This document shows, one piece after another, positions 42,043 to 45,390 of a stretch of DNA of 64,000 nucleotides (position 1 is the stretch's first letter; each line of letters begins with the position of its first letter). The notes beneath the pieces were generated by a model. It was not told the DNA's origin. It ran no database searches and worked only from the letters and a program-made list of their open reading frames with translations. Position numbers and translations under genes: made by a program. The stretch lies in the NCBI GenBank assembly GCA_030750865.1, contig JASMHE010000007.1:1-64000 (forward strand). The letters are read 5' to 3'. The stretch comes from Alphaproteobacteria bacterium (GTDB taxonomy: Bacteria > Pseudomonadota > Alphaproteobacteria > Micavibrionales > Micavibrionaceae).

Positions 42043-44769
42043 TTACCCCAGATTCAACGTGCCGGGTTTCTTCCGCGGCGTAGATGGCCTGTTGTCTTGT
42101 GCCGCCGCCTGTTCACGCGGTTCCGGATCGCGCAGTTGCGGTCCGTCAAATGCACCGGACAAGGATTTCTTGCGATTCTTATCATTTTTCAAACGCGCTT
42201 CTTTAGCCATCATTGACTGAATTTCAACCGATGTGGCTTCGCTGCGTCTGAATTTCAACTGGCGGCGCACATTGGCAAAATCGCCTGTCGTCAGGTTTTT
42301 GATGCCCGCAAGACCTTCGGGGAATTCACGGTCTTCACCAAAGAATAACGGCCATGCTTTCTTGATTTGATCCGGACGCAAATAATCACATTTCATTTTA
42401 TGTGAGAAACGGCGCATGGATGCCTGATCCAGATCGTTGATCAGATTGGTAGAAAACGCACATGGCAATGGGTGTTTTTCCAGACATGTCAGCATCTGAT
42501 TCACAGCACTGACTTCCCAGCTTTTCGTCGCACCACGGCGGTCGCGCAAGAAGCCATCCGCTTCGTTAATCACAAGGAATTTGTTCTGCGCTTTTGCTTC
42601 GTCAAATGCGGCACGGATTTTGGCTTCCGTTTCACCGACATACGGGCCGCTCAGCTCACTGGCATCAAGTTCCATGACTTCCATGTTCAACCGTCCGGCG
42701 ATATAGTGCGCATATTCGGTTTTACCTGTGCCCGGCGGGCCATAGAACAGCAATGAGAAGTCTTTGTAATCAGAATCGACCAGATCGTCCGTCAAATCCT
42801 CGATACTATAACCGCTATCGTCGCCGCCCATACCAATATCGGCATTCAGCAACCCGAGATCATATTCCGTATCACGCAATGTGGATTTCGTGCTCAGGGC
42901 AGAGCGCGCACCGTAAACGGCTTCCGCGTAACGCTCCATCAGCACTTCCACATCCTTCACATCACCACCGGTGCGGCGGATATTGCGCAATGTCGTGACA
43001 ATCGCACCGACAGGGGCGGCATATTTGCGACCCATCTTATCAAGATCAATGCCTTTTTTCTCCATAAAGTCATCAATATTCTTGATGTCTTTGGATGCCA
43101 TATCAAATTTGAAGACGCGCTCGGCGACCGTGCGCCAGATATTGGACCGCACATGAGCAGGCGGAATGCCGAATTTCATGGACGTTGTCATACGGCGTGT
43201 TACCGAACTGTGGAACGCTTCGGCGTTATTTTCCGTCCAGAACGTAACGGTCTTGTTCTTTTCAAACAAACGGTTTACAAAAATTTTGCTGGCTCCGTCA
43301 TTATCCTGCGCGCCGCCACCAAACAGGGCCGCAAGGCCACCTTGTTCGGACGCACCCGGAATGGCATCAATCGCTTCATCAAACAAGCATGCCGCATCCT
43401 TACGTCTGGCAAGAATACCCTGCGCCAACAAAAGTTGCGTCAAACGGAAATCACGGTCAGGCTCTTCGCCCATATCGTCTTTTTCACCAATTGAATACAG
43501 CGTCAATCCGGCCTTTGCCGCCAGCACCTTACAATATTCTGTCTTACCCGTATCCGGCAGACCGTGGAACAACAGGTTCATACCGATACGGTCTTCTTCC
43601 TGATCTGATTCCATCGCGCCTTTCAACAGACGCAAATGCAAATCACGCTCTTCGGCCATATAATCGAAATCTTCCCATGTGCAGGACGGCTTGGTCGGCT
43701 CACCGATCAGGCTTTCGATCAGTGAATCCAGATCACCATACGGCTTATCCAGTTGACGGGTGATATATTCATCAATCGTCGGATAATATATCATGTCAAA
43801 ATCACCGTCGAACTCCGGCTCATTTTCCGGATTAAAGACGATTCCGCTGGTCACAAGCGGCGCATCATGGGCAATCATTTTTTCGATATCTTTGGCCTCG
43901 ACATCCTTACCCAGCATTTTCGCCAGCACAAAACTTGCCAGTTTTTTATTTTCGGACGTAATCTGATCCACGAAGTTTCTCAGCATATAGCTTTCATCGA
44001 GGATGTGGATCAACTTGACAAATCGTGTTTCAAGATCACTAAACCCGAAATGCTCGCACAGCTTCATCAAATTGATGTACACATCGGTCTGTTCATAGGC
44101 TTCCGCGTTCTCAATTTCTTCTTTCAGCCAGTCCTTCAACTGCTTCCAGTCGCGTGTGCTCACAGCATGGTCTTTCGTACCGCTGATCTTTTCCCACTTT
44201 TTATCCTCGGTGTATTTTGGCTTGTATTTCGGCTTTTTCACCATACGGATTTTCGTGTTGATCGCTTTGCGCTTTTTCTGCAACGCGTCTCTGGCCGCAA
44301 TATATTCTTCGGGCAGTTCATCTTCCAGATCACCATCGACATCATCGTCAACATCATCAAGATCCGCATCATCGTCATCTGTTTTATCATCATCGGAAGA
44401 TGCACTTTCAACGCCATATTCTTCATTCAGCTCTTCAAGTTCTCTGCGCAAATCGGCACGCTTTTCTTTCAGCGGCTCGATCTTTTTCTCATATTCCTGA
44501 AGTGTCTCGTTATACGCACCTCTTTCAGCCGGGAATCGTTTGGCCAGCGTATATTGGAAAACATCGTCATTTTCAATAAGCTGGGCAAGGTGATAAGCAA
44601 GCGGTGTCTTGCGGTCCATACCATTGATAAATGTCTGCAGGAATTTATAGGCTTCGGCCTCGTCCTGCTTGAATTCCTGCATCAGGAAATTTGCAGCACT
44701 GACTGATCTTGCATCCTGTTTTTCTTTATTTTTATTATCAGACGCAGCTTTCTTGCCGGAACGAGCCAT
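42043..44769 (-). CDS. Double AAA+ ATPase with acidic linker
   Basis: A 908-residue ATPase. The N-terminal 390 residues are helical and include a predicted coiled coil (about 90-118) and a striking Asp-rich tract (126-152). The first AAA module has Walker A GLPDTGKT (403-410) and Walker B ACLFDEAID; the second has Walker A GPPGTGKT (677-684), then ELSGPYVGETEAKIRAAFDE and Walker B FLVINEAD, with Asn replacing the first acidic residue but Glu kept. The C-terminal tail is basic. It belongs to a known but uncharacterised bacterial double-AAA family (SpoVK-like second domain); remodelling of an unknown substrate is inferred. GGGAGGTGACGG is a strong ribosome-binding site. No operon partner. Confidence 0.85.
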   Translation of the reverse strand: MARSGKKAASDNKNKEKQDARSVSAANFLMQEFKQDEAEAYKFLQTFINGMDRKTPLAYHLAQLIENDDVFQYTLAKRFPAERGAYNETLQEYEKKIEPLKEKRADLRRELEELNEEYGVESASSDDDKTDDDDADLDDVDDDVDGDLEDELPEEYIAARDALQKKRKAINTKIRMVKKPKYKPKYTEDKKWEKISGTKDHAVSTRDWKQLKDWLKEEIENAEAYEQTDVYINLMKLCEHFGFSDLETRFVKLIHILDESYMLRNFVDQITSENKKLASFVLAKMLGKDVEAKDIEKMIAHDAPLVTSGIVFNPENEPEFDGDFDMIYYPTIDEYITRQLDKPYGDLDSLIESLIGEPTKPSCTWEDFDYMAEERDLHLRLLKGAMESDQEEDRIGMNLLFHGLPDTGKTEYCKVLAAKAGLTLYSIGEKDDMGEEPDRDFRLTQLLLAQGILARRKDAACLFDEAIDAIPGASEQGGLAALFGGGAQDNDGASKIFVNRLFEKNKTVTFWTENNAEAFHSSVTRRMTTSMKFGIPPAHVRSNIWRTVAERVFKFDMASKDIKNIDDFMEKKGIDLDKMGRKYAAPVGAIVTTLRNIRRTGGDVKDVEVLMERYAEAVYGARSALSTKSTLRDTEYDLGLLNADIGMGGDDSGYSIEDLTDDLVDSDYKDFSLLFYGPPGTGKTEYAHYIAGRLNMEVMELDASELSGPYVGETEAKIRAAFDEAKAQNKFLVINEADGFLRDRRGATKSWEVSAVNQMLTCLEKHPLPCAFSTNLINDLDQASMRRFSHKMKCDYLRPDQIKKAWPLFFGEDREFPEGLAGIKNLTTGDFANVRRQLKFRRSEATSVEIQSMMAKEARLKNDKNRKKSLSGAFDGPQLRDPEPREQAAAQDNRPSTPRKKPGTLNLG

Positions 44770-44873: not shown

Positions 44874-44902
44874 TTGACAAAAGAACAAAAATAGAACATA
44901 AA
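44874..44902 (+). promoter_or_regulatory. Candidate promoter for a small RNA
   Basis: Perfect -35 TTGACA at 44874-44879, 17-base spacer and -10 CATAAA at 44897-44902, in the divergent gap between the AAA gene and the next plus-strand gene. Confidence 0.5.
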
Positions 44903-44908
44903 GAAAGA

Positions 44909-45026
44909 GCAAAGAGAAGAAGTGTATCCAAAACCCGCTTGGGAGTTCTGTTTTCCAGAATTTTCACAGCGGGTTTTGTTGTACCAGCCCCCTTATTCCC
45001 GAAAGCGCCGCACGCGGCGTTTTTTT
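44909..45026 (+). ncRNA. Putative small RNA or attenuated leader
   Basis: From the expected start about 44909 the transcript would contain a strong compound hairpin at 44930-44977 (outer stem AAAACCCGCT/AGCGGGTTTT, inner stem TTCTG/CAGAA) and end at a Rho-independent terminator at 45002-45026 (CGCCG/CGGCG, loop CACG, then seven T). No coding frame is convincing inside. The terminator lies 28 bases before the ATG of the next gene, so this is either a free-standing RNA of about 115 bases or a leader that attenuates that gene. It matches no RNA family I recognise. Confidence 0.45.
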
Positions 45027-45054
45027 ATGTGCAAAATTCAAGAAGGAGAATCAC

Positions 45055-45390
45055 ATGACAACCATCATGCCGCAAGATATTGACGGACACCCCATCCCCG
45101 CTGTACGCCTGAAAGAGGGCGGCGCACACACAATCAGCACCGGCGCATCCAGCGCGCGCAACATAACAGCATTTGATCCGGAAACACGCATCGTCAGTCT
45201 GTATGCCACAGAACCTGTTTATATCCGCTTTGGCGCAAGCGGGGTCGATGCCACATCATCCGACCACTATTTCCCCGCCGGAACATATTATGATGTTTCA
45301 ATCGGCGGTGATAAAGCCACGCATTACACCCATATTGCGGCATTGGCCGTGAACACAGCCGGAACATTATATATTTCCGAAAAAGAGTAA
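45055..45390 (+). CDS. Small protein resembling phage structural accessory proteins
   Basis: A 111-residue protein, probably all beta. The central segment, with YATEPVYIRFGASGVDATSS followed by DHYFPAGTYYDVSIGG, and the end AVNTAGTLYISEKE recall small phage capsid/tail accessory proteins that decorate with a D-H-FPAGT-YD pattern. No other phage gene is near, so it may be a domesticated remnant. It has an excellent ribosome-binding site (AGAAGGAGAATCAC) and is preceded by two hairpins that could control it. Confidence 0.6.
   Translation: MTTIMPQDIDGHPIPAVRLKEGGAHTISTGASSARNITAFDPETRIVSLYATEPVYIRFGASGVDATSSDHYFPAGTYYDVSIGGDKATHYTHIAALAVNTAGTLYISEKE

Follow-up and report, generated by a model that had tools for sequence, protein, structure and literature searches.

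What does a promoter do when it is followed within about 150 bases by a strong hairpin and a T-tailed terminator, directly ahead of a phage-like gene? The question is raised by positions 44874–45026 of the window, by which we mean the whole stretch of 64,000 nucleotides analysed here, from a member of the Micavibrionaceae. The preliminary description took this interval for a small RNA or an attenuator with no gene, and held that nothing in the coding features explains it. The latter does not hold, since the element is the 5' leader of the gene at 45055–45390. The reading developed below, which we consider evenly poised between right and wrong, is that 44874–45026 is the control leader of this 111-aa gene, consisting of an SOS-type promoter and a promoter-proximal terminator, and working by antitermination within a GTA-like phage regulon.

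Promoter and operator

The -35 element TTGACA at 44874–44879 (+ strand) is perfect, as first described, and is kept together with a LexA-type box in relatives. The best -10 element available in the window is CATAAA at 44897–44902 (+), placed from a spacing of 17 bases to TTGACA and agreeing with the consensus at four of six bases; a -10 is thus present, but the earlier word "fair" is generous for so weak a hexamer. In many relatives the hexamer at this position is CATTAT, CATAAT or CATACT. Inside the spacer, GAACAAAAATAGAAC (44883–44897, +) constitutes a direct repeat GAAC-N7-GAAC that we take to be the alphaproteobacterial LexA box, with binding predicted. Among relatives, 22 of 25 genomes carry this box ahead of lexA and 18 of 27 carry it ahead of recA. 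By comparison with these two genes the operator is identified as the probable LexA box of the lineage, overlapping the promoter, and LexA should be able to bind and repress at 44883–44897.

Within the window four GAAC-N7-GAAC repeats occur against 1.5 expected, which is not clearly above chance as 9 of 100 shuffles reach four. The longer pattern TTGAC-N4-GAAC-N7-GAACA has exactly one match per genome in all ten genomes searched, which had been picked as carrying the LexA-type cassette, and no match when reversed; by coordinates, the match lies upstream of the copy of the 111-aa gene in 10/10 genomes. A consensus scan listed neither the 44874 promoter nor the terminator at 45002–45026, and the number of sites that it found in the region was about that of shuffles. 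In our reading the promoter was missed because its -10 is without the required T, and the terminator because its stem reaches into the T run. The case therefore rests on the comparison with relatives, which supports a promoter for which the evidence from the single sequence is weak.

The neighbouring gene at 42043–44769 (- strand) is divergent from the cassette and encodes an AAA+ ATPase of 908 aa with two AAA stretches, its best PHROG match being phrog_10401 (ATPase). The LexA-type box possibly acts on this gene too.

Hairpin and terminator

The compound hairpin of 48 bases (44930–44977, +) consists of 10 perfect outer pairs, one bulged C and 11 inner pairs. Its strength, already pointed out in the preliminary description, is borne out by folding, as 44930–44990 reaches -27.5 kcal/mol (z -6.0) and none of 200 shuffles is as stable. 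The second, T-tailed intrinsic terminator at 45002–45026 (+) is likewise recovered from both sequence and folding, with -13.3 kcal/mol for 45000–45030 (z -2.0; 10 of 200 shuffles as stable), and the whole leader from 44900 to 45030 folds with -45.1 kcal/mol (z -5.0; 0/200). The first hairpin is read as an ancestral terminator whose top has been enlarged and whose T tail has decayed, and the terminator-like hairpins of four relatives (L088, L083, L095 and L128) are built from the same arms. The pairings had been expected to be conserved in relatives. In the small set of five sequences with these arms, the window included, pairing is kept (50 of 50 cells are standard pairs), but the covariation is thin, with compensatory pairs at 2 of 10 positions, which 23 of 500 shuffles equal and which is weak when taken alone.

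The hairpin is not a dispersed repeat, as the genome has no second copy and the other matches are 13–50 bases long with E 0.085 or worse. The Rfam search that had been suggested for the leader gave nothing at gathering score. Below the threshold, the best matches by E-value were to Atu_C9 on the minus strand, with E 0.12 and 13.1 bits where 40 are required, and to Mu-gpT-DE, with E 0.29 and 15.6 bits where 49 are required; both were judged to be chance, as were Arrc14 and OmrA-B.

The 111-aa gene

The start codon at 45055 is located 28 bases past the terminator end at 45026, in agreement with the distance first given, and is preceded by a ribosome binding site AAGGAGA at 45043–45049 (+) with like sites in relatives. 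The gene (45055–45390, +) encodes a phage-type protein of 111 aa with a predicted beta-rich fold. It is present in 105 of the 142 genomes of the order, in 102 of them as a single copy, and the named matches belong to Micavibrio and alphaproteobacterial MAGs. Scanning viral contigs by pattern returned four loci, and a tblastn search of phage records gave one match, with 32% identity. On one podovirus-like contig (L129, 4463–5128) two tandem homologues are found between major head and tail genes with a strong terminator ahead. From this kind of position in phage-like contigs the product is taken as a virion protein, and its function would be that of a particle component.

The protein of the window has no match in Pfam or PHROG at E 0.1 and no useful sequence family was found, NCBIfam included; one of 50 alignment members matched one PHROG with E 0.0024. 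The structure model has a pLDDT of 92.8, and its closest structural matches are uncharacterised phage proteins with TM up to 0.76. Among solved structures the best match is an Ena1B-type pilin with TM 0.46, and VIA-align Z values reach at most 6.7, so the fold gives no function.

Leaders of the 111-aa gene in relatives

We compared 103 non-redundant upstream stretches, admitted with a score of at least 110 and at least 230 bases upstream. The 99 whose profile score reached 145 were retained as the set of chromosomal copies; those dropped are L129, L130 and L131 from viral contigs and the distant chromosomal copy L126. Seven of the 105 genomes (G053, G070, G103, G107, G108, G109 and G114) are outside the upstream comparison, unless among named loci. 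A strong terminator, meaning a sequence signal with our own score of at least 18, is located between promoter and gene in 82 of the 99 copies against 1.0% of shuffles (83/99 with another version of the scorer, used for the orientation counts below), and upstream of the promoter in only 8 of 85. The hairpins keep their place while their stem sequences differ widely, which is the pattern shown by a terminator. Promoter, terminator and 111-aa gene stay together, which fits an attenuator of the phage-like gene, and this part of the preliminary description is thereby strengthened. The 17 copies that have no strong terminator count against an antitermination reading.

Terminators in this position could also act as a passive throttle, operating with no partner factor, shielding the gene from read-in and leaving a fixed leak that suffices. 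By a simple ORF rule the upstream gene is co-directional in 77 of the 99 copies, 65 of them with a strong terminator, making such shielding plausible, and a terminator sequence that varies freely is what a throttle would allow. However, seven of the nine copies with a divergent upstream gene still carry a strong terminator, and a throttle gives no role to the 5'-end motif common to the capsid operon that is described below. We consider this explanation doubtful, if worth keeping in view. The idea that the terminators belong to the upstream gene is rejected for this window, where that gene is divergent and they cannot end a co-directional upstream gene; the same seven of nine cases speak against it.

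The operators ahead of the terminator are of more than one kind. A LexA-type box is present in 39 of the 99 copies, 38 of them with strict GAAC-N7-GAAC. Of the 60 copies without it, 36 carry a TAGGA-type box, GGA-N6-TCC (TAGGA-N6-TCCTA-like); among the remaining 24, several show a near match to the TAGGA-type box and others none. That the TAGGA box might be a second form of LexA box is rejected, as 11 of 11 genomes labelled TAGGA-type at the cassette carry GAAC-N7-GAAC at lexA (it is absent there in G018, whose label is uncertain), indicating that the TAGGA box serves another regulator. In several genomes the palindromic box TAGGA-N6-TCCT greatly exceeds its reversed control, with 34 matches against 1 in G011 and 29 against 0 in G016, palindromes being counted on both strands, and part of these sites are without the leader motif, pointing to a wider regulon of a candidate repressor.

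A motif at the predicted transcript 5' end

A blind motif search in 97 leaders found the 17-base motif AACRCCANAAWTSYRYC with 11.8 bits per site, compared with 5.4 in letter-shuffled leaders. The window copy at 44912–44929 (+) reads AAGAGAAGAAGTGTATCC, with the right half kept and the left half diverged; pattern searches missed it, and it is absent among the matches listed from a leader-model search. The preliminary description had passed over both this motif and the LexA-type box at 44883–44897. The motif starts 8–11 bases past the -10 at 56 of the 61 sites where an operator fixes the -35, and at 72 of 93 sites overall, and the register is kept less well where no operator is recognised (13/21) and in leaders with a shifted box (3/11). 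The near-fixed spacing to the -10 places the motif where the transcript is expected to begin. It is conserved and close to the promoter, as a putative loading signal might be, but it lies downstream of the start, and the copy in the window is diverged.

Plain-pattern searches gave 9 matches against 2 for the reversed control in 24 genomes and 33 against 6 in 104 genomes; 31 of the 33 were looked at and 29 loci were tallied in detail. A promoter-like hexamer is found at the right distance at 16 of these, one of the 16 (L309) being apparently inside a gene, and several of the 13 that have no hexamer look like chance. Seven of the 29 loci precede a capsid gene and two the 111-aa gene. Other genes behind the motif encode proteins of 417 aa (SGNH-like by eye), 481 aa and 283 aa, and the motif is also located ahead of some tail-like genes. 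Three scattered genes behind the same leader type (L276 1501, L280 1501 and L402 1866) encode proteins that start with ML..LGRG(L/M) and then diverge, one being SGNH-like and one LamG-like by eye and one a SASA esterase by Pfam; they are perhaps exchangeable tail proteins with a common attachment end.

The podovirus-like capsid cluster

The capsid protein belongs to Phage_capsid_2 (E 8e-81), and genes for a T7-type scaffold and a Head-tail_con portal are located upstream. The capsid gene is present in 88 of the 104 genomes of the family, including that of the window where it occurs once, and in 103 of the 142 genomes of the order, mostly as a single copy, and full-length matches within the family show 66–82% identity. 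The cluster was mapped over stretches of up to 20 kb, with details from 9 of 11 genomes. In these nine the gene order is kept as portal, scaffold, capsid, tail tube proteins and, where reached, tail spike. The leader was flagged at the cluster in seven of the nine; a looser search adds the motif of G022, and none is found in G100. Most of these clusters are flanked by host genes that resemble pyrE, NAD kinase or purC by eye. A repressor-like gene adjoins the cluster in seven of the nine, and its product by the portal gene is weakly typed (HTH_26 with E 0.09, Peptidase_S24 with E 0.1) with no sequence match in the PDB. Also next to the portal gene, g141 and g172 have no match in Pfam, PHROGs or NCBIfam, and are candidates for an antiterminator from position only.

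In the window's genome (G000) the podovirus-like virion, packaging and lysis set is split over two contigs, at G000:C6:78051-98050 (L347) and G000:C10:79500-85000 (L398). One contig extends from the repressor-like gene to the portal, and the other carries the leader, capsid, tail tubes, spike, terminase (phrog_38, E 4.5e-89) and endolysin. In the capsid leader of this genome TTGACA is accompanied by a TAGGA-type box and by the motif.

The virion gene cluster appears to have been kept by descent across host genera, judging from how its genes vary and occur together. Identities of recA and capsid are correlated over 15 genomes (Mantel rho 0.38, 16 of 2000 permutations), as are those of recA and the 111-aa protein over 27 genomes (rho 0.29, 5/1000) and those of capsid and the 111-aa protein over 15 genomes (rho 0.49, 2/1000). 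Among the 104 genomes of the family, some of them incomplete, 86 have both genes, 2 the capsid gene alone, 13 the 111-aa gene alone and 3 neither (Fisher p 0.025). One locus, L401 (G010:C2:24500-44000), has its portal frame in two pieces and no capsid gene was found there, and the leader with the motif and a GGCGTTTTT hairpin persist; it is apparently a decaying copy of the cluster.

With a weight matrix built from the 111-aa leaders alone, the motif is recognised in 48 of 55 capsid upstream regions (46 of 53 distinct ones), and the reverse strand gives 8 of 55. Eleven of the 46 motif-bearing capsid leaders have a strong promoter-proximal terminator, against 1.5% of shuffles, and ten of these eleven terminators use the motif's own 5' half; the other 35 leaders have none by our score, so a strong terminator is not a general feature of the regulon. 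In the capsid leaders of L324, L337, L339, L351 and L352 the terminator takes its 5' arm from the first half of the motif, motif and terminator being merged. When 10 genomes were searched with a model of 29 capsid-type leaders built from sequence alone, most gave a full-length match at their capsid locus (E 1.4e-12 in G000), together with many partial matches that are without the motif.

The first six bases of the motif are complementary to the downstream leader in 2 of 81 leaders of the 111-aa gene, where 1.8 are expected, and motif and terminator pair in 13 of 46 capsid leaders, where 1.1 are expected. That the motif is kept for pairing with the terminator is consequently true for part of the capsid leaders and not for those of the 111-aa gene, and a small conserved hairpin within the motif is unsupported by column covariation. 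These results bear on a self-contained attenuator, whose terminator would be switched by a leader peptide or by refolding of the RNA. A GTG-started frame does run from 44922 through the hairpin, and the motif forms the 5' arm of the terminator in ten capsid leaders, but by eye neither start codon nor frame is conserved among the listed leaders, and the 111-aa set shows no excess of complementarity between motif and leader, leaving such a device very improbable.

The leader could also give rise to a small RNA induced by DNA damage, with the 5' motif as a single-stranded seed and the hairpins as its terminator, and the 111-aa gene would then be expressed by read-through. The anatomy fits, with a conserved 5' end and a variable terminator sequence, and a seed that stays unpaired agrees with the chance-level pairing in the 111-aa leaders. 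Against it stand the near-fixed register of the motif to the promoter and its position ahead of the capsid operon as well, where most motif-bearing leaders have no strong terminator, and no Rfam match reaches the gathering score. We hold a small RNA to be unlikely.

Proposed regulation and known systems

In the control leader that we favour, the proposed termination, antitermination and antitermination factor would work as follows. A σ70-type promoter is overlapped by a LexA-type operator, and on account of this overlap it would be off until DNA damage removes LexA. The polymerase would then start near 44909, transcribe the 5'-end motif and mostly halt at either hairpin terminator, giving a short RNA of roughly 70–120 bases, and full expression of the 111-aa gene would require that the polymerase passes the terminators. 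The motif, which stands in a near-fixed register and is common to the capsid operon of the podovirus-like cluster in the same genome, most likely tags promoters where a factor of the cluster would render the polymerase termination-resistant, in the manner of Q, AlpA or GafZ. The operators in G000 differ, with a LexA-type box at the 111-aa gene and a TAGGA-type box at the capsid leader, so joint regulation requires that both answer one signal.

The late promoter served by lambda-type Q proteins has the pR'-tR' arrangement. It resembles the window in having a promoter, a promoter-proximal signal and a terminator before phage genes, but the Q element sits within the promoter and drives a late operon, whereas the window-type motif is downstream of the start and the locus contains one gene. 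For Q of the lambda type, PMC6606751 describes a conserved promoter-proximal signal and termination signals preceding the late genes. AlpA of Pseudomonas aeruginosa acts, according to PMC9371919 and PMC7969949, at a promoter linked to DNA damage with a downstream intrinsic terminator that needs bypass. This is the combination proposed for the window; the AlpA binding element, however, lies within the promoter and belongs to a programmed cell death pathway, while the window motif lies past the start.

The CcGTA of Caulobacter is close in logic, with terminator bypass and dispersed promoters. According to PMC11150451, GafZ lets the polymerase bypass terminators, accessory promoters at other loci are co-activated, and GafY works at about 18 promoters related to the GTA. 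The CcGTA terminator is located after the first gene of the main cluster, and GafZ has one target, whereas the window terminator precedes a single dispersed gene. Also unlike CcGTA, the virion genes here are podovirus-like and the operators are LexA-type or TAGGA-N6-TCCTA-like. The genes of RcGTA are likewise dispersed, over 5 loci according to PMC9765227. RcGTA and BaGTA resemble our putative agent in having a virion cluster, mostly in single copy, with distances growing with host distance. The MCP of BaGTA is analysed as HK97-type in PMC9662315, unlike the Phage_capsid_2, T7-type scaffold and podovirus-type tail proteins found here.

Meaning for the family

Promoter-proximal terminators before phage genes are already known. 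A family-wide podovirus-like element with a common leader code is undescribed within the open-licence PMC literature that we searched. As a tentative proposal that goes further than the leader itself, Micavibrio-like bacteria may hold a podovirus-derived gene transfer agent over several loci, with a DNA-damage operator, a 17-base 5' signal, a frequent terminator and a factor reading the signal, of which the window would be the LexA-controlled locus. One factor passing the terminators would in such an agent switch on the scattered particle genes together. The exchange of LexA-type and TAGGA-type boxes at the orthologous 111-aa gene is an example of rewiring. If the proposal is true, the terminators at a lone dispersed virion gene would be a small and clean test case of antitermination outside the model phages, the scattered particle genes would be traceable through their common promoter code, and a whole bacterial family would retain a podovirus-like, phage-derived particle, unlike the HK97-type agents.
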